Shown piece after piece: positions 46,624 to 55,192 of a stretch of DNA of 64,000 nucleotides. Both the position numbers and the translations under genes were made by a program. This DNA is from Pedosphaera parvula Ellin514. Its GTDB lineage: Bacteria; Verrucomicrobiota; Verrucomicrobiia; Limisphaerales; Pedosphaeraceae. The notes beneath the pieces are model-generated. The model was not told the origin of the DNA, did no database searches, and was given only the letters and a program-made list of their open reading frames with translations. Every line of letters begins with the position of its first letter. The first letter of the stretch is position 1. Location: the NCBI RefSeq assembly GCF_000172555.1, contig NZ_ABOX02000004.1, forward strand, positions 186,001 to 250,000, given 5' to 3'.

Positions 46624-47097
46624 GTGCCCGTCATCCAAACATCCCTCCAAATCCACGCTCCCATCGAAAGAATCTTCGATTTGTCCCGCAGCATTGATCT
46701 CCACATCGCCTCAACCGCCCACACCGGGGAACGCGCCGTCGCCGGAGTGACCTCAGGTCTGATTTCTTTGGGAGAAGAAGTGACCTGGCGCGCTAGACAT
46801 TTTGGCATCTGGCAGGAACTGACAAGTCGCATCTCTCAATACAACCGTCCACATCACTTTCGCGATTCCCTCGTCCGCGGCGCCTTCCGACATTTCGACC
46901 ACGATCACTACTTCGAAACCGATGGCGCCATAACCACCATGAAGGATGTCTTCGATTTCGAAAGCCCTTTCGGAATCTTGGGCCTCGTGGTCAACCACCT
47001 CGTGTTGGAAAGATACATGCGTCGCCTTCTTGAGAAGCGAAACGAAGTCATTAAAGAAGTTGCCGAATCGGAGAAGTGGAGAACCTACCTGCTTTAA
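46624..47097 (+). CDS. SRPBCC (START-like) protein
   Basis: A 157-residue protein of the SRPBCC/polyketide-cyclase-like fold: starts MPVIQTSLQIHAPIERIFDL, then EEVTWRARHFGIWQELTSRI, FRDSLVRGAFRHFDHDHYFE, and a C-terminal long helix (VNHLVLERYMRRLLEKRNEV). The fold binds hydrophobic ligands in a deep pocket. The start is a GTG. Ligand unknown. Confidence 0.85.
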   Translation: MPVIQTSLQIHAPIERIFDLSRSIDLHIASTAHTGERAVAGVTSGLISLGEEVTWRARHFGIWQELTSRISQYNRPHHFRDSLVRGAFRHFDHDHYFETDGAITTMKDVFDFESPFGILGLVVNHLVLERYMRRLLEKRNEVIKEVAESEKWRTYLL

Positions 47098-47179
47098 ATC
47101 TACGCCCATGAAAGTTTCAACCTTTGTCCAGGAACAAGCTCGCCGAGACCGCCCCCAAGCATGCCTCCCGTAAAAGCGA

Positions 47180-47201
47180 ACGCCCCTCTTCCGAGGGGCG
47201 T
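47180..47201 (-). terminator. Terminator of the MglA/MglB arm
   Basis: A perfect 9-bp stem ACGCCCCTC / GAGGGGCGT, loop TTCC. On the minus strand it is followed by TCGCTTTTA. It lies about 30 bases past the roadblock gene stop. The SRPBCC gene converges on it from the other side. Confidence 0.75.
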
Positions 47202-47231
47202 CGTTGACAATCTTGTTGCAGGCTGGGCAGC

Positions 47232-47711
47232 TTAAGCTTGCTTCCGAAAAAACTGGCTCGGATCAGCGATGTTGAGCACCGAGAGATCCAGTCCGCCTCC
47301 AGGGGTCCGTTCCTGGGCGCGCACCAATTGTTGCGCAATGCGCATGCTGGAGCTCATCGCGTAATACTTCACCGCGCCGACACCAACCGCCGCCCGGAAA
47401 ATGGTGGTCAGGAGGACATGTTCATCCACGTTCATTACCAGCATGCTAAACTTTTCACCCTGCTGGTACACACTGTCAAAGTTATTTTCATGCACCAGGT
47501 TGGCGATGGTTTGATTCGCCAGGTAGGCACCTGAAGCCAGGGCCGCTATCGTGGTCAGGTCGAACTGTTCGCCTTCACCGCGATAGGTGATGAGGAAGCC
47601 GCCCTTATCAATGATGAGGGCCGAAGTGGCTTCACTACTAACCAGCAACTCCTGTAAAATCCGATCCAGTTGCTGGACATCTTCTTCGATGAGTTGGGGC
47701 AGCGTTGGCAT
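47232..47711 (-). CDS. mglB: Roadblock/LC7 protein, MglB-like
   Basis: A 159-residue single-domain roadblock protein. The pattern LDRILQELLVSSEATSALII, LASGAYLANQTIANLV, VLLTTIFRAAVGVGAVKYYA is of the MglB type, the homodimeric GTPase-activating partner of MglA. The gene lies 3 bases after mglA in the same operon. In Myxococcus and Thermus, MglB stimulates GTP hydrolysis by MglA and helps set the cell pole. The symbol is given by analogy. Confidence 0.85.
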   Translation of the reverse strand: MPTLPQLIEEDVQQLDRILQELLVSSEATSALIIDKGGFLITYRGEGEQFDLTTIAALASGAYLANQTIANLVHENNFDSVYQQGEKFSMLVMNVDEHVLLTTIFRAAVGVGAVKYYAMSSSMRIAQQLVRAQERTPGGGLDLSVLNIADPSQFFRKQA

Positions 47712-47714
47712 TCC

Positions 47715-48341
47715 TTAAGCGGGTTGATGTACTCCGACATTCTGCTGCTGACTGATAAACTTGTTAAGCAGCATCCGGGTGATCATATTCAGGGATTCAA
47801 ATACTCCCTCGCACTTGTGAGCCACTGAAGTAAAGGACGGGACCTGAACTTCGCGATTGTTCAGCAAATATTCCATGTATTCCACTGGCGCCACGTTTGG
47901 CAAATCCTGCTTGTTATATTGCAGCACATATGGAATGTCCGTGAGATTCAACTTCAATGACTTGAGATTCTCTTCCAGGTTCTGAAAACTCTCCACGTTC
48001 TCCGCCATTTTCTCGTATTGCGAATCCGCGACGAACACAATGCCGTCGACTCCGCGCAACACCAATTGCCTGGTGGTATTATAAATCACCTGCCCCGGGA
48101 CGGTGTAGAGTTGAAACTTGGTTTTAAAACCTTTGATCGACATCGCCTCGATGGGCAGGAAGTCGAAGAACAGGGTTCGATCCGAACTGGTTGCGAGTGA
48201 AACAAGCTTGCCCTTGTTTCCAGCCGCAGTTTGCACATGGTCGTGCACCTGGACCAGATTGGTTGTTTTACCGCCCATGGCCGGACCGTAATATACGATC
48301 TTGACCTGCAGTTCTTTTGTTGCCTGGTTTATTATGGCCAT
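47715..48341 (-). CDS. mglA: MglA-like small Ras-superfamily GTPase
   Basis: A 208-residue GTPase. The P-loop is GPAMGGKTT (19-27), the switch-II region reads TVPGQVIYNTTRQLVLRGVDG with the MglA-type TxPGQ in place of DxxG, and the base-specificity motif is NKQD. MglA switches polarity of motility or secretion machines in its GTP form. It is longer than many MglA (about 195) by a short Gln/His C-terminal tail. It sits between a large roadblock adaptor and the MglB-like gene, spaced by 5 and 3 bases, so the three are one operon. Confidence 0.92.
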   Translation of the reverse strand: MAIINQATKELQVKIVYYGPAMGGKTTNLVQVHDHVQTAAGNKGKLVSLATSSDRTLFFDFLPIEAMSIKGFKTKFQLYTVPGQVIYNTTRQLVLRGVDGIVFVADSQYEKMAENVESFQNLEENLKSLKLNLTDIPYVLQYNKQDLPNVAPVEYMEYLLNNREVQVPSFTSVAHKCEGVFESLNMITRMLLNKFISQQQNVGVHQPA

Positions 48342-48346
48342 AAGTT

Positions 48347-50455
48347 TTATTGCTTGGGTTTACGATCCAGTTCTGCTGCGAGCCCTGCCAGTTGTGCCGT
48401 GGGCATCGGTTGTCCGGCTACGCCGAACGCCGCGAAATAAATGGCGCCGACCCGGAAAATCTTCCACGGAATATTTCCAACTGTGAAATTCAAGTTATTC
48501 AGATCGCCCATGCGAAGTTCCTTCGTAGTCTGGCTTACCTTGGTGAAAATTGCCGGGAGGAATCCAGCCATTGTATCTGCGTTGACATCGGCGGAAACTT
48601 TGCTGGCGACCAGTAATCCGTCTGGAAGCGCGATCAGCGCGCCACCAATTCCCGGCAGGGAGGCAGCCTTGCCCACGATATCGTTTGGCGTGGCATAGCG
48701 TTGCAGGAAACTGGTGCCGATCTTGGCGCCTTTCTTGATCTGCAGTGCGGGATCGTTCGGGTTGTCTGAACCTTCTTTCTGGAAGTAATTCGTTTCCATC
48801 GACTTTGATTCCTGCGTGACATCCACCATTGCCGGAACTGTGCTCTGAGCGGGTGGAGTGCTGGTCGGCGTGAGGGCCTGAGGCTTTGATCCATTGGCAA
48901 ACAGATCCGGAATTTCTTCCGAAATTGAGATCTTTTTGGCCGCCCTTGGTGTTCTGAGTTCCGCGAGGAACAGCGGAGTCACAATTTTCAAAGGCAATTC
49001 GAGGAGAACCGCGTCATGCTCTGAAACTCCATTTGCCACCGGTGGCCGAATCCAGGATCGAACGACTGCCCAGGAGAAAGCCAGTTTGCCTGCTTTCATG
49101 GCTGCTTCCACGGTTACATATGGCAGGCCGACCAGCGCTCCCGGCTTGTTCATCAAATCTATCTCACGTTTCACCGGATCAGGCCACCCTTGTGACAAGT
49201 CCTTCAATGGTGCAGCAATACATTTGGTTTCTTCGGTTATCGCAGGAACCACGGGCGCAGCGAGCGTTGGAGCCGGGGCTGTTGACGTAAAGGTTATGGG
49301 TGTGCTTGGCGCAAGTTGCGGTGCAGCCGGGGTCGCCACTCCGATCGGATTAAACCGAATGGGCGCCGGTTGCTCAATTGGTGTAACCGGAGCGGGTTGA
49401 GGCTGCGCCACAGCGGGCCGGGAAGGTGCCAGATCCCGTAAAGCGGCAGAAATCGGTATGGCGTCCGGGTCCCCGGAAGGAACGGCGCCTGCCGCGGGCG
49501 GTGCCGTTGGCACAATGGGTGAAAATATCGGGCGCGCAGGTTGAACCGGTTGGGCGGGCTGCACGGACTGGGTCGGTGCTGGAGTGGTGCGGCGGAAAAT
49601 CGGCTGTTCGCCAGCGGGCTCAGTAGCGAGCGGCGGAGCACCGATAGGACGAACGGGCACCGCAGGGGTTACCCGGACCGCTGGAGGTGTGGGCGCGAGC
49701 GGAGAGATTGGTGTCACCGGCGCTGCACGCATTGCGGGGATAGGAACAGCTGGAGCGATCGGAGCAGCAGGCGCTGCCGGCCGGGGAGCCTGAGTGGATT
49801 CAGGCGAAGTGGAAAAGCCATTCCGTTTGTGCGAAGCATCCTGCGGCACAGCTGCCGGCTTCGCAGACTCGTTCTGTTTGAGCGAAGGAGTTTTGGAAAT
49901 TGTGACACGGGTTTGACCGCTGAAAGGCCCGGTGACTTCAGGGGGAACTTCGATAACCTTCTGCGAGGGACGCCGTGCGATCAACCCGGGATTGACCCGC
50001 GACAGGATTTCGGCAAGCGGAAGGTCCACCATCGTGCGGTCCCGGTCATTTTCAGGAGAAAACGTTCCAGGAGGTGAAGTCTGGCGTAATTCGCCAAACG
50101 AAATTCTTACGGCTCCGGTGGCCAATTGAGTATGTACCTTTTGCACCGGCACGAAAAGCTCGGCTTCGCCGACGTCATTTTGTCGCACACGGCCTGCAAG
50201 CTCCGGAGGCAATTTGGCAATTACCGCCCGAAGTGAAACAGCGAAGCGTGAACCGGCGACCGGGGGTGGCGTCGGCCGGGAGGCATCCACTGTTGGCGTC
50301 GGCCGGGCATGAGCCTCGGGACGCGCACTGGCCGCTCTGGCACCTGGAGCACGGGAGGCAGGCTTGGGTGCAGACGAAGCCGGGCGATAATCCGCAGTCG
50401 CCACACTGGCTTCTTCAACACGCTTGCCGAAAAGTTTCTTAAGGGTATTGAACAT
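48347..50455 (-). CDS. Pro-rich adaptor with duplicated unnamed domain and C-terminal roadblock domain
   Basis: A 702-residue cytoplasmic protein, first gene of the mglA arm. A basic Ala/Pro-rich N-terminus (1-70) precedes a compact domain at about 71-160 (VSLRAVIAKLPPELAG ... VRISFGELRQTSPPG ... DLPLAEILSRVNP). A proline/alanine-rich linker (190-405) with a short echo of the domain start (PISAALRDLAPS, 334-345) leads to a second copy of the domain at about 411-500 (IAAPLKDLSQGWPDPV ... LAFSWAVVRSWIRPP ... LELPLKIVTPLFLAEL). A roadblock/LC7 domain closes it (583-695: IGGALIALPDGLLVASKV). The repeated domain matches no family I know. It looks like a scaffold linking MglA to other parts. Confidence 0.85.
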   Translation of the reverse strand: MFNTLKKLFGKRVEEASVATADYRPASSAPKPASRAPGARAASARPEAHARPTPTVDASRPTPPPVAGSRFAVSLRAVIAKLPPELAGRVRQNDVGEAELFVPVQKVHTQLATGAVRISFGELRQTSPPGTFSPENDRDRTMVDLPLAEILSRVNPGLIARRPSQKVIEVPPEVTGPFSGQTRVTISKTPSLKQNESAKPAAVPQDASHKRNGFSTSPESTQAPRPAAPAAPIAPAVPIPAMRAAPVTPISPLAPTPPAVRVTPAVPVRPIGAPPLATEPAGEQPIFRRTTPAPTQSVQPAQPVQPARPIFSPIVPTAPPAAGAVPSGDPDAIPISAALRDLAPSRPAVAQPQPAPVTPIEQPAPIRFNPIGVATPAAPQLAPSTPITFTSTAPAPTLAAPVVPAITEETKCIAAPLKDLSQGWPDPVKREIDLMNKPGALVGLPYVTVEAAMKAGKLAFSWAVVRSWIRPPVANGVSEHDAVLLELPLKIVTPLFLAELRTPRAAKKISISEEIPDLFANGSKPQALTPTSTPPAQSTVPAMVDVTQESKSMETNYFQKEGSDNPNDPALQIKKGAKIGTSFLQRYATPNDIVGKAASLPGIGGALIALPDGLLVASKVSADVNADTMAGFLPAIFTKVSQTTKELRMGDLNNLNFTVGNIPWKIFRVGAIYFAAFGVAGQPMPTAQLAGLAAELDRKPKQ

Positions 50456-50951
50456 TTGACCTGGTTATATTTTTGACACTGCTGTCACATTTCATCGACA
50501 TCGGTAACCCGGCATTACGACGACTGGGATCCACGCTATTCATTATCATCCGCCAGTTTCTGTTTCGTTCGCGACTTGCGCGCAAGGGCTCAAACCCTTC
50601 GTTCCGGTCGCTGCTGCCATGGTTACTGTGCGACATTTGTTTACTTGATCCTCTGCCCATTCGTTCGTGATAATTGAACAGGCAAGAAGCGTGCCACCAA
50701 TACACTCCCCATCGTTATCCCTTATCTGGAAGGCAGGCTTTGAAGAAGTTGGGCTGGCACCCCCCCAACTTTAACCATGCCTCGCCAACGAAGGTGTCCC
50801 ATGGCTGGACTGGGTGTCTATAATGGATGGAAATGAGAGCAGCATCCAACCCACCTCACTTCTGGACAAAACCAGCAGATAATGCTTTCAAAATGAAAAA
50901 TGAAAAAGATTCACTTTTTTCGGAACGCGGAATGCTACTTGCTTAAGTGTC
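50456..50951. promoter_or_regulatory. Divergent intergenic region of the roadblock cluster
   Basis: 496 bases with no supported gene. It must hold the promoters of both arms. A short dyad TGACA-N4-TGTCA (50474-50487) lies 19 bases upstream of the adaptor start. An 8-bp stem AAGTTGGG (50746-50753) / CCCAACTT (50764-50771) lies nearer the regulator arm. Neither is a known operator. Confidence 0.45.
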
Positions 50952-52070
50952 ATGACAGATGCGGACAACCAGTTAACAAAACCGGCATCATCGGTCCCTA
51001 AAGATCTGAACAACATTATGTCTACGCAACCAAAAATCCTGCTCGTGGATGATGACCAGGATTTGCTGGATTTGTATAAGGAGATGCTCTCCGAATTACC
51101 AAGCCAGCCGGAAATCTTCACCTCGTCCACAGGTGCGCGCGCGATGACCATGATGGATGCCGAGCCCTTCACACTATTAATCTGCGATTTAAACATGCCG
51201 AAGATGGATGGCTTGCAAGTGCTCTCCATTGTGCGTCGCAAATATCCGGACCTCCGAACGGTCGTCCTCACCTCGGTGATGGATGAACAATTTCGCTCCC
51301 GCGTTTACAGCCTGGGCGTTGATTTGTTTTGGCAGAAGCCTGGTTCGAGCGAGGAGATCAAACAATTTCTGGAATGTCTGGAATCTCTCCTCGGTCGGGA
51401 TACGCAAACCGGCTTCCGCGGTGTTCAGAGCAAGAGCCTGGTCGATATCATCCAGTTGGAATGCATATCTCAAAGTTCGACCGTGCTCAAAATCAAGAAC
51501 GGCTCTCTCTGTGGCAAAATTTGGATCAATAATGGCGAAATTTTTGATGCGACCGTGGACGGCTTGGAAGGGGAAGCGGCGTTCCACAAAGTTCTTTCCT
51601 GGAAATCGGGAAACTTCGAGGTCCTGTCGGCCGAACCCAACCACCCGAGAGTAATCACCAACTCCTACCATGCCTTGTTGCTTGAAACAGTTCAGGCTCA
51701 AGATGAAGCCCAGGATTCTTCCAAACCTAATGTCAAAAGTGTTTCCATTCTTTCCACGCTCGCAAAAATTCCAGGAGTGGAATTCATTTTGTCATTGAAC
51801 ACGAAGAACGAAAAAGGCATTGAGTCGCGGGGACTGGAAAATCCGGATCAAGTTGCCAAATGGTCAAAGCAGGCGATCAAACAGTCTCGCGGACTTGGTG
51901 AATTGCTTGGCGCGGGCCAGTTACAACAGGTTGAAGGACTCGGGCCGCAACGGCACGTCACACTCGCATCCAACGACGATGCAGACATCTGCGTTGGCTG
52001 GCAACAGAACCAATCACTGCCACAAATCCGTGAATCGATGAAAACCCTGCTTGCCTTATGGGTCTCTTAA
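50952..52070 (+). CDS. Response regulator with PATAN (DUF4388) and roadblock-like domains
   Basis: A 372-residue three-domain regulator. The receiver domain (28-150) has VDDDQD, phospho-acceptor D79 (LLICDLNMPKMDG) and lysine K129 (WQKPG). Residues 154-250 are a DUF4388/PATAN domain (GVQSKSLVDIIQLECISQSS, GKIWINNGEIFDA, FHKVLSWKSGNFEV). Residues 262-370 look like a roadblock/LC7 fold (SILSTLAKIPGVEFILSLN ... ESRGLENPDQVAKWSKQAI). PATAN is known from the cyanobacterial regulator PatA and from regulators near MglA/MglB. It has no DNA-binding domain and probably acts by binding other roadblock or GTPase partners. ATGs at codons 1 and 23 are both possible starts. Confidence 0.9.
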   Translation: MTDADNQLTKPASSVPKDLNNIMSTQPKILLVDDDQDLLDLYKEMLSELPSQPEIFTSSTGARAMTMMDAEPFTLLICDLNMPKMDGLQVLSIVRRKYPDLRTVVLTSVMDEQFRSRVYSLGVDLFWQKPGSSEEIKQFLECLESLLGRDTQTGFRGVQSKSLVDIIQLECISQSSTVLKIKNGSLCGKIWINNGEIFDATVDGLEGEAAFHKVLSWKSGNFEVLSAEPNHPRVITNSYHALLLETVQAQDEAQDSSKPNVKSVSILSTLAKIPGVEFILSLNTKNEKGIESRGLENPDQVAKWSKQAIKQSRGLGELLGAGQLQQVEGLGPQRHVTLASNDDADICVGWQQNQSLPQIRESMKTLLALWVS

Positions 52071-52360
52071 ACCTTTTCGCCAAACCGGCTGCCAAGCTCA
52101 CCCCCCTGCCCTCGGGCAGCTTCACGGTGGATCGGGAAGGGCGTCTTCTCATCTCAACCCTCGGCCAGGCCTTTCCAGAGGAATTGGTGAGTGAAATTGC
52201 AAGTGTTGTCCTATCCACCTTTCAAAACGCACAGGCGGCGAGACTGCCCCTCTCCCAGATTATCCTGCGTTACAATAGCTTAAAAATTACCGCTCGTGAG
52301 TTGCGTGGCGGCGCCATAGTGTTTTTAGCCCCACAAGTTTTATCCAGCAAGCGAAATTAA
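52058..52360 (+). CDS. Small protein of the roadblock cluster
   Basis: A 100-residue protein starting inside the regulator's 3' end (13-base overlap). Sequence GSFTVDREGRLLISTLGQAF and LPLSQIILRYNSLKITARE suggests a compact alpha/beta fold of the roadblock/LC7 size, but the match is weak. No signal peptide or membrane segment. Its position, translationally coupled to the regulator, points to a role in the same system. Confidence 0.75.
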   Translation: MGLLNLFAKPAAKLTPLPSGSFTVDREGRLLISTLGQAFPEELVSEIASVVLSTFQNAQAARLPLSQIILRYNSLKITARELRGGAIVFLAPQVLSSKRN

Positions 52361-52384
52361 CCTTAACCTCCAACCGCAACGCTT

Positions 52385-52789
52385 ATGCAAGAAAAGAAAA
52401 TGGACCAACTCATTCAGCAGTTGGAGACCTATACCGAGTGCTGGAAACAGTTTAATTATTTCGTAAATCTTGCCCGGACCAAAAAGTTCGGCAGCGAGGA
52501 CGAAGGCCAGTTTCTGGAAACCAAGACCGTGATCGTACAGCAATTGGAATCGATCCTGGCCTCCATCGAAGCCGGCACTCCCGCGAAGGACGAGGTCCTG
52601 GGCCTCATCGGCAATGCCCCTTCCCTGCGCTTCCTTGGTGAAATGAATGATTCCGCCTTGCGCAATCTCGAAAGCCAGTGGCACAAGCTGTACATCGGCT
52701 GGCACTCTGTGCTTGGCCAGTTAAAGGTTCAGCGACAACATTTGGAATCCAAAACGATCTTTGGTTCCATGTTCGAGAAAAAGAAGTAG
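52385..52789 (+). CDS. Helical small protein of the roadblock cluster
   Basis: A 134-residue, mainly helical hydrophilic protein (MDQLIQQLETYTECWKQFNY ... LESQWHKLYIGWHSVLGQLK) with a short Lys tail. Coiled-coil tendency is seen at the start and end. No family recognised. It begins 24 bases after the previous gene and is likely the last of the arm. A start at MDQL (codon 6) is also possible. Confidence 0.72.
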   Translation: MQEKKMDQLIQQLETYTECWKQFNYFVNLARTKKFGSEDEGQFLETKTVIVQQLESILASIEAGTPAKDEVLGLIGNAPSLRFLGEMNDSALRNLESQWHKLYIGWHSVLGQLKVQRQHLESKTIFGSMFEKKK

Positions 52790-52818
52790 ATATAATCCTC
52801 CGAGTTCAGTCTCAGATA

Positions 52819-52882
52819 CAGGGTTGGGAGACAACCCTGCTCTCCACAGTATCTCAGGAATGCGGAAAACCCGCATTTCCTG
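52819..52882 (+). promoter_or_regulatory. Two adjacent hairpins upstream of uppP
   Basis: CAGGGTTG (52819-52826) pairs with CAACCCTG (52832-52839). CAGGAATGCGG (52855-52865) pairs with CCGCA-TTCCTG (52871-52882, one bulged T). No T-run follows either. They could end the previous operon in a factor-assisted way or shape the uppP leader, whose ATG is 36 bases further on. Confidence 0.45.
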
Positions 52883-52918
52883 CTTGTCAGGCGCGGCATT
52901 TTCCCTTCTAACCAACGC

Positions 52919-53707
52919 ATGCCTGATTGGATTAGCATACTCATTCTTGGGATCATCGAAGGAATCACGGAATTCCTACCGGTATCCTCCACCGGCCATC
53001 TCCTCATCGCCGAACATTGGCTGCCCAAACAATCCGACCTTTTCAATATCGTCATCCAGTCTGGCGCAGTAATCGCCGTCATTCCCATTTTCTGGGGCCG
53101 AATCACCCAGTTTTTCACGCGCTGGACGGAGCCAAAGACACGAGATTACCTCCTAAAGATCATTGTCGCCTTTGTTATCACCGGTGCCGGAGGGTTCATC
53201 CTTGAAAAAAAAGGATTCAAACTACCCGAGAAAGCATTCCCCATTGGCCTGGCCCTGCTCATCGGCGGCGTGCTCTTTCTTTTGGTTGAATTTCTGATTC
53301 GTGGTAAAAAATTAAGCAACGAAGTCACCTGGTCGGTGGCCTTTGCAGTAGGCATTGGCCAATTGATCGCCGCCGTATTCCCCGGTTCTTCCCGCTCCGG
53401 AACCACGATCATTCTCGCATTGCTTTTAGGTCTCAGCCGCCCTGCGGCAACCGAGTTTACCTTCCTCGTGGGTATTCCGACCATGCTCGCGGCTGGTGGA
53501 CTGAAGATTTTTAAGGCCTGCTTCCATCACGGCGTCAATGCCCCACACGAAAATTGGAGCATGGTCGCCTTGGGAACCATTGTCTCGGCAATTGTCTCAT
53601 TTATTGCCGTCAAATGGCTCCTGCGCTACGTGCAAACGCACACTTTCAACGCTTTCGGCTGGTACCGAATCGCAGTGGGAATTCTAGTCCTGCTTTTTCT
53701 GCGCTAA
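52919..53707 (+). CDS. uppP: Undecaprenyl-diphosphatase
   Basis: A 262-residue BacA/UppP membrane phosphatase that recycles undecaprenyl diphosphate to the monophosphate carrier used in peptidoglycan and glycan synthesis. The two catalytic motifs are present: EGITEFLPVSSTGHL (14-28) and PGSSRSGT (155-162). About eight membrane helices. High-level expression of the enzyme gives bacitracin resistance in other bacteria. The 3' end overlaps the convergent sugar dehydrogenase gene by 24 bases. Confidence 0.96.
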   Translation: MPDWISILILGIIEGITEFLPVSSTGHLLIAEHWLPKQSDLFNIVIQSGAVIAVIPIFWGRITQFFTRWTEPKTRDYLLKIIVAFVITGAGGFILEKKGFKLPEKAFPIGLALLIGGVLFLLVEFLIRGKKLSNEVTWSVAFAVGIGQLIAAVFPGSSRSGTTIILALLLGLSRPAATEFTFLVGIPTMLAAGGLKIFKACFHHGVNAPHENWSMVALGTIVSAIVSFIAVKWLLRYVQTHTFNAFGWYRIAVGILVLLFLR

Positions 53708-55192
53708 GGGCTCCTTCGGTTCGCCTGTGTATTCGATCCGGACGATCTGGGAGTCCAGATTGTTTTCCCAGGCAGTCCCATATTCTATCAGATAGAGGCA
53801 GCCATCAGGCCCCAATTCCATGTCCATGGGACGTTTGAATGTCATGTGCGGACAGAATTGTTCCATTTTGGCTATGTTATCCTTTTCATCGAGGTGAACC
53901 GCCAAGATCCAGTTGCGCGACCACTCGTACAGGAAGAGCGTATGATCAAATTCGCGCGGCAATTTATGTTCCGACTTTAACTTCGGGTCATAATAATAAA
54001 CCGGCCCGGCCATCGCCGTCCGTCCGCCACTGCCTAAAGCAGGAAATTTGGCTGAAGGCCCGTAGGTATAGGAGATGAAAGCCGGTTGAGCCGGGGGTAA
54101 TTCCTTGATCCCGGTATTATTGGGTGAGTTGTTAACCGGTTTGGCAACATCGAACCGTTCTCCCGAAGTCTGCTTTTCAAAATCATGCTTCCAGTAGGCT
54201 TTATTTTCGCCGAGGAAGTAAGGCCAGCCAAAGAATCCGGCAGAACGGGCCTGGTTAAATTCATCCATTCCAGCCGGTCCACGACCTTCCTTGAAGGTTT
54301 GAGCATCCGGACCCACATCACCCCAATAGAGAAAGCCGGTCTTTTGATCAATGGAGATGCGGAAAGGATTGCGGCAGCCCATCGCGAAAATTTCCGGACG
54401 AGTGCCCATGGTGCCGGGCTTGAAAAGATTACCTTTGGGAATCTTCACTGAGCCATCTGGCTGAGGGGTTATACGCAGCACCTTGCCTCGCAAATCATTG
54501 GCATTGGCCGCTGATTTTTGCGCATCCCAAGGGCTGCGTCCTGGACGCTCGTCGCTCGGAGAGAAGCCATCGGAAGCAAAGGGATTAGTATTGTCGCCGG
54601 TGGAGAGATAGAGATTTCCCTTGGAATCGAATGCCAGCGAACCACCCGAATGACAGCATTGCTCACGCTGGGTGGCGACCCGCAGCATCACCTTCTCCGA
54701 CGCCATATCCAGCTTGTTATCCTTTAAAGTAAACCGCGACAGGATATTTTCGCCTGCCTTCTCTCCATTCTTGTCGGTCTTGGTTTCGGGTGGAGAGTAG
54801 TAGAGATAAATCCAGTTATTCTTCAAAAAATTGGGATCCAAAGTCACACCAAGCAATCCGTCTTCCAAGTGGAGTTTGATATAATCCTCCACTTCGAGTT
54901 TTCCGATAACAATGGTTGCCTTAGTTTCGGGTTGGTACATTTTAACTGTCCCATCGCGTTGGGCATAGAACACCCGGCCATCACCCGCGACCGCCAGTTC
55001 CATCGGATCTTTCACTGAGTCGATGATTTTGCCGTTGCCTTCGACATCCTTATCCGCATCGAGAATCACCTTTTTAAATGCCCCGTCCGATTGTGGACCG
55101 GAAGGAAGTGGTGCATCACCGGCCTGCGAACTGGCCAGGAATGCGCTGGTGCAGAAAGTGAGGCTTAATAGCTTAAGAACGGGGTTTTTCAT
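53684..55192 (-). CDS. Exported PQQ-dependent sugar dehydrogenase-like protein (GSDH family)
   Basis: A 502-residue exported beta-propeller of the soluble glucose-dehydrogenase/HHIP-like family. The signal peptide is LLSLTFCTSAFLASSQAG. Family stretches: DGRVFYAQRDGTVKMY, EDGLLGVTLDPNF, GGSLAFDSKGNLYLSTGDNT, RGKVLRITPQPDGS, AMGCRNPFRISID. The EDGLLGV/GCRNPFR regions form the PQQ/substrate site in characterised members. Verrucomicrobial and planctomycete homologues often join with cytochrome or ThuA domains, which are absent here. It is followed on the same strand by no other gene, and its end overlaps uppP. Confidence 0.88.
   Translation of the reverse strand: MKNPVLKLLSLTFCTSAFLASSQAGDAPLPSGPQSDGAFKKVILDADKDVEGNGKIIDSVKDPMELAVAGDGRVFYAQRDGTVKMYQPETKATIVIGKLEVEDYIKLHLEDGLLGVTLDPNFLKNNWIYLYYSPPETKTDKNGEKAGENILSRFTLKDNKLDMASEKVMLRVATQREQCCHSGGSLAFDSKGNLYLSTGDNTNPFASDGFSPSDERPGRSPWDAQKSAANANDLRGKVLRITPQPDGSVKIPKGNLFKPGTMGTRPEIFAMGCRNPFRISIDQKTGFLYWGDVGPDAQTFKEGRGPAGMDEFNQARSAGFFGWPYFLGENKAYWKHDFEKQTSGERFDVAKPVNNSPNNTGIKELPPAQPAFISYTYGPSAKFPALGSGGRTAMAGPVYYYDPKLKSEHKLPREFDHTLFLYEWSRNWILAVHLDEKDNIAKMEQFCPHMTFKRPMDMELGPDGCLYLIEYGTAWENNLDSQIVRIEYTGEPKEPLAQKKQD

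Follow-up and report, generated by a model that had tools for sequence, protein, structure and literature searches.

The window, a stretch of 64,000 nucleotides from Pedosphaera parvula Ellin514 (order Limisphaerales; genome of 7.4 Mb in 102 contigs), holds a cluster of six genes in two divergent arms with an intergenic gap of 562 bp between them. All six reading frames claimed by the first-pass annotation are present where it had placed them, and the arm on the minus strand consists, as it had said, of a 702-aa adaptor, MglA and MglB, the latter two being clear by sequence. The content given for the plus arm also stands, with a Rec-PATAN-roadblock regulator, a 100-aa protein and a helical protein, but the start of the regulator is probably 51018 and not 50952, because Met23 of the open reading frame is nearly invariant among relatives and a sigma54-like element lies just upstream.

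47232..47711, minus strand: mglB, 159-aa roadblock/LC7 protein, predicted MglA GAP (Pfam Robl_LC7; MglB structures)
47715..48341, minus strand: mglA, 208-aa small Ras-like GTPase (MglA structures; motifs)
48347..50455, minus strand: adaptor, 702 aa, with two alpha/beta modules, Pro-rich linkers and a C-terminal roadblock (Pfam in relatives; AlphaFold)
48350..48703, minus strand: C-terminal roadblock domain of the adaptor, residues 585-702 (fold match; Robl_LC7 in relatives)
48890..49234, minus strand: alpha/beta module 2 of the adaptor, residues 408-522 (confident AlphaFold core about 411-501)
49910..50254, minus strand: alpha/beta module 1 of the adaptor, residues 68-182 (confident AlphaFold core about 70-160)
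50682..50696, minus strand: predicted sigma54-type -24/-12 promoter of the adaptor-mglA-mglB arm, TGGCACGCTTCTTGC (11/11 consensus positions)
50795..50813, plus strand: imperfect dyad between the two promoters, TGTCCCATGGCTGGACTGG (conserved among relatives)
50928..50942, plus strand: predicted sigma54-like promoter of the Rec-PATAN arm, CGGAATGCTACTTGC (8/11 consensus positions)
51018..52070 (reading frame opens at 50952), plus strand: Rec-PATAN-roadblock response regulator (Response_reg, DUF4388)
51720..52067, plus strand: C-terminal roadblock-like domain of the regulator (top PDB match of the profile 7f8f Robl_LC7, E 0.0014)
52058..52360, plus strand: minimal roadblock protein, 100 aa, core without terminal helices (AlphaFold, fold search)
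52385..52789, plus strand: helical protein, 134 aa, outside known families (conservation in relatives; fusions)

An Rfam search over positions 47000-53000 gave no match. The cluster is followed by a likely undecaprenyl-diphosphatase (UppP) gene at 52919-53707, which adjoins the module in several relatives too, and then by a sugar-dehydrogenase-like gene at 53684-55192.

The six proteins and their roadblock domains

The GTPase matches the MglA structures of M. xanthus and T. thermophilus over its full length (E 2.4e-62) and is the single MglA found in the genome (one match). Group 1 MglA proteins are recognised by a P-loop GxxxxGK[T/S], an Arg beside the Thr of G2, TVPGQ in G3 and a coupled mglB (PMC4316618). 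All three motifs are present in the structure alignment of the window protein and mglB lies directly downstream of mglA, as expected of a Group 1 MglA. The Arg, which is the Arg-finger, and TVPGQ are found in 70/71 MglA members of the order, and mglB was detected by BLAST at 48 of the 61 loci in the class. In an earlier survey, MglA of Verrucomicrobia appears under Group 5 only (PMC4316618). MglB, the only match to Pfam Robl_LC7 in the genome (36.3 bits, cut-off 23), also matches MglB structures (E 4.6e-13) and is predicted to be the GAP of MglA; its best-scoring NCBIfam model is still the Thermus-type equivalog NF052242, with 66.6 bits, below the cut-off of 200.

In its AlphaFold model most of the adaptor is disordered, and the three parts modelled with confidence are the two alpha/beta modules, homologous to each other (hhalign probability 98.7), and the C-terminal roadblock. 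Taken alone, the C-terminus reaches E 0.0056 with Pfam Robl_LC7, which is below cut-off, and in the relatives the match is found in 42/43. When the full-length adaptor was used for the fold search the match list was filled by the roadblock domain, and the C-terminal model gives a VIA Z of 18.1 over 114 residues to Roadblock3 and of 16.8 to M. xanthus MglB. As modelled, the C-terminus is a complete roadblock fold, alpha-beta2-alpha-beta3-alpha. Amphipathic N-termini that would target the adaptor and the minimal roadblock to the membrane looked plausible by eye, and were dropped because their hydrophobic moment is no higher than that of MglB.

In the regulator both the receiver (Response_reg, E 4.7e-20) and PATAN (DUF4388, E 1.9e-13, 51 bits against a Pfam cut-off of 25) are clear, as they are in 54/54 relatives when DUF4388 is counted at E 0.05 or better. 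The receiver should be phosphorylatable, judging from the conserved acidic pair (D33 in 54/54, D34 in 53/54), the acceptor Asp79 (54/54) and Lys129 (54/54); Thr/Ser107 is kept in 54/54 as well. The C-terminus of the regulator has no Pfam match and its best PDB profile match is E 0.0014, and it is for these reasons the least certain of the roadblocks, roadblock-like by sequence profile only. The first-pass count of at least three roadblock domains, possibly four, is thus borne out for three by fold or curated profile, and we consider it likely that the module has four.

No Pfam family matches the 100-aa protein, but according to its AlphaFold model (pLDDT 86.6 overall, 92-97 in the core) it is a roadblock core, beta2-alpha-beta3, that lacks the terminal helices. 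The top Foldseek matches listed are roadblock-family chains, with a best aligned Z of 9.1 to MglB, while profile-profile comparison among the roadblock-like families gave probabilities of 0.1-18 and was not sensitive enough. Its start overlaps the stop of the Rec-PATAN gene by an identical 13 nt in 70/77 cases. The helical protein has 25 invariant columns across 13 relatives and gave only weak matches in the PDB (E 0.15 or worse). Two relatives, G118 and G128, encode it and the minimal roadblock as a single fused protein, which suggests joint action of the two. At a further locus (L127:4453-6177) Rec-PATAN and the helical protein share a single frame that runs through the overlapping gene of the minimal roadblock, possibly through a frameshift or an assembly error.

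Conservation of the layout, co-occurrence and predicted promoters

In 84,980 species genomes scanned for the helical protein, 142 stretches encode it, from which 80 loci were kept. The relatives are Verrucomicrobiota, for the most part under the names Pedosphaera, Limisphaerales or subdivision 3, and a search of 241 genomes of the phylum gave three matches, all in members of the class. A survey of gene neighbourhoods had been proposed as the check on the linkage of the two arms, and it came out in favour of it: in 47 of the 52 relatives whose flank on the mgl side spans 6 kb or more, the complete set of six is found in this divergent arrangement, and the orientation is the same in 55/55 complete loci. 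A layout as conserved as this excludes chance. The PATAN arm stands alone at 5/52 loci, and three of these five genomes have mglA elsewhere (one of the three matches is split and another ends at a contig end). The arms are apart and yet both present in four genomes, G013, G125, G158 and G128, and where they are separated both are usually still in the genome.

In a sample of about 190 genomes of the class (188), MglA is present in 58 and the helical protein in 37. Within the order, and including genomes with unlinked arms, the helical protein is found in 15/15 genomes with MglA and in 2/18 without it, counts that are confounded by shared ancestry (Fisher 1.3e-7; 6e-4 with one vote per family, 9/9 vs 2/10). 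One of the two exceptions has an interrupted fragment. The other, G153, keeps the helical gene (L193, 9257-9787) directly after argG, a gene that also adjoins the window cluster, and this looks like a remnant after loss of the module. More distant relatives of the helical protein have other surroundings. In family f27 (L200-L202) the genes lie directly after a PATAN gene, unlinked to mglA, with a hybrid kinase gene and an HU/IHF-like gene as neighbours; in families f24 and f22 (L195, L197, L203, L205) the proteins are longer (about 174-187 aa), with what looks like a membrane segment at the C-terminus of at least one, and are encoded near hisZ/aspS-type genes without PATAN, in f22 also without mglA.

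Both arms are preceded by matches to the well-established -24/-12 consensus of sigma54 promoters, which we regard as predicted promoters, and rpoN is present in the genome. Matches of at least 9/11 face the mgl arm in 46/66 relatives and the PATAN arm in 28/66, each against about 5% of shuffles; the site of the latter arm reaches up to 9/11 in relatives and usually lies 80-97 nt before the ATG. The dyad between the promoters is a candidate for a shared activator site, being found with at least 12/15 positions in 47/58 regions and in less than 1% of shuffles, and the window copy is the only exact one in the genome.

A probable pilus motor and the rival readings

In other families of the class a PilB-type ATPase gene lies directly upstream of adaptor-mglA-mglB on the same strand, at 17 loci in 8 families, where not every adaptor-like ORF was matched to the adaptor by sequence. 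These PilB genes are nearly always preceded by a TPR-MshEN gene, and the PATAN arm is absent from this operon. At three examined loci of other families (L070, L072 and L073, family f41 included), all without Rec-PATAN-roadblock, the PATAN protein that faces the adaptor has an FHA domain in place of a receiver, and the PATAN theme therefore persists with a different phosphate-linked input domain. The genome of P. parvula has a TPR-MshEN and PilB pair on contig C68 (G000:C68:7769-10379; L219:7766-10379), apart from mglA, and this PilB is 58% identical to the PilB of the mgl gene runs; a separate PilB-PilT-PilB cluster lies on contig C31. A sigma54-like site precedes the TPR-MshEN-PilB pair in 8/16 genomes (2.7% of shuffles), and the shared dyad upstream of it reaches at best 9/15, which is chance level. 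Within the order, C68-type PilB is found in 14/15 genomes with MglA and 3/18 without, again confounded by ancestry (Fisher 1.1e-5; one vote per family 4e-3). We count against the link that this PilB stands without MglA in six genomes and that G101 has MglA but not this PilB. PilT-family presence was rejected as a discriminator, since these ATPases occur in 186/188 genomes and are uninformative.

The PilB operon of other families and the co-occurrence thus lend independent support to the type IV pilus, which had earlier been guessed as the target. We consider it reasonably probable that the six genes form a conserved Limisphaerales MglA control module, and that extension of type IV pili by a dedicated PilB-type motor is most likely the step it licenses. 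The gene comparison indicates a link of the switch to a motor that extends pili, and the switch therefore probably controls how and where the cell extends them for surface movement. We infer polarity, effects on the GTPase and binding within the module as follows. An upstream kinase would phosphorylate the receiver; no kinase gene lies in the six-gene cluster, which we count against this reading. Through its roadblock the Rec-PATAN-roadblock regulator would form a complex with the minimal roadblock and the helical protein, and this complex could alter the nucleotide state or the localisation of MglA, alongside the GAP MglB. MglA-GTP would then act through the adaptor, PATAN may contact PilB, as has been reported for cyanobacterial PATAN regulators, and the output would be pilus assembly where MglA-GTP sits. 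The simplest reading would be that a signal from the receiver is passed to MglA via the roadblock proteins and to PilB via PATAN. A more specific design, in which adaptor, regulator and minimal roadblock form a Ragulator-like heteromeric scaffold that is switched by phosphorylation, controls which nucleotide state MglA is in and passes the GTPase on to a single dedicated PilB, is tentative, and we would not expect it to hold in full. The eukaryotic Ragulator (LAMTOR) likewise has several roadblock proteins, some of them short, serving a Ras-like GTPase, but this is an analogy only.

The same module could instead act on type II secretion or on a competence-type pilus, with the ATPase working as GspE or ComGA. 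This we find unlikely. The C68 protein scores 652.2 bits with the type IVa PilB model TIGR02538, below its cut-off of 675.65, and GspE comes close as second with 597; pilin or pilus core genes are absent at the locus, and PilT-family ATPases are nearly universal in the class. Both proteins scanned, however, score best with the PilB model, and where MglA is known to act on a process that involves this ATPase family, that process is the type IV pilus (PMC11580455); the genome also has the separate cluster on C31. There is a smaller chance that the arms are two systems which share only the promoter region, with MglA, MglB and adaptor serving PilB and the Rec-PATAN arm regulating something else. 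The five loci with the PATAN arm alone, the distant helical relatives without MglA in f22 and the PilB operon lacking this arm would all fit, but the co-occurrence of 15/15 vs 2/18, which includes genomes with unlinked arms, the roadblock domains encoded in both arms and the PATAN-FHA proteins in an analogous place argue for one system.

Least probable to us is that the MglA module controls another polar or envelope process, such as cell shape, polysaccharide or gene expression, as in the conservons of Streptomyces. MglA-family systems do vary in output (PMC4316618), and we know of no motility phenotype in these bacteria, most of which are uncultured; against it stand the PilB operon, the co-occurrence and the finding that a DNA-binding domain was detected in none of the six proteins.

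Comparison with known systems

The first-pass suggestion of an undescribed module holds in part. Wuichet and Sogaard-Andersen 2014 (PMC4316618), with reference to Makarova 2006, had already noted PATAN proteins beside mglA/mglB, while the open-access papers searched gave no description of the six-gene set, the composition of four roadblocks or the PilB-mgl operon. Those neighbourhoods likewise have PATAN close to mglA/mglB, but in what these sources offer here it is an occasional proximity, whereas in our case the six-gene layout is fixed in dozens of species and supported by co-occurrence. The polarity module of M. xanthus, where MglA and MglB work with RomR/RomX, MglC, RomY and SgmX/FrzS/SopA to PilB, is similar in its Group 1-type MglA with MglB, its receiver-domain regulator and its roadblock accessory, and also in an output through a TPR protein and PilB (PMC11580455, PMC9481161); in that species PilB reaches the pole by way of the TPR protein SgmX, itself recruited by MglA (PMC11580455). 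Here, in contrast, receiver, PATAN and a roadblock-like domain are joined in one protein, an extra minimal roadblock and a helical protein are present, and a roadblock-bearing adaptor lies beside mglA. In sister families mglA has PilB and TPR-MshEN as neighbours, whereas the response-regulator partners of M. xanthus are unlinked (PMC4316618).

In cyanobacteria, the PATAN regulators PixG, PilG and TaxP2 bind PilB and likewise tie PATAN and a receiver to type IV pili, the binding in Synechocystis being credited to Han 2022 as cited in PMC10519157; in that account these systems are described without MglA, and the C-terminal roadblock-like domain is a feature of the PATAN protein in our module. 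The actinobacterial conservons share an MglA-like GTPase, a roadblock protein and two-component input, but the histidine kinase CvnA and CvnC are absent from the window neighbourhood, and the GTPase motifs are those of Group 1, not Group 2.

The experimental work that we found on MglA-controlled type IV pili is mostly from Myxococcus and Bdellovibrio, and a second compact module, in which gene order and co-occurrence link a receiver, a GTPase, four roadblocks and PilB, would reveal what is general in the pathway. It would also be a small, genetically defined set in which the action of roadblock proteins on bacterial Ras-like GTPases could be tested, and it offers a function for unannotated genes that are conserved across many species of Verrucomicrobiota.
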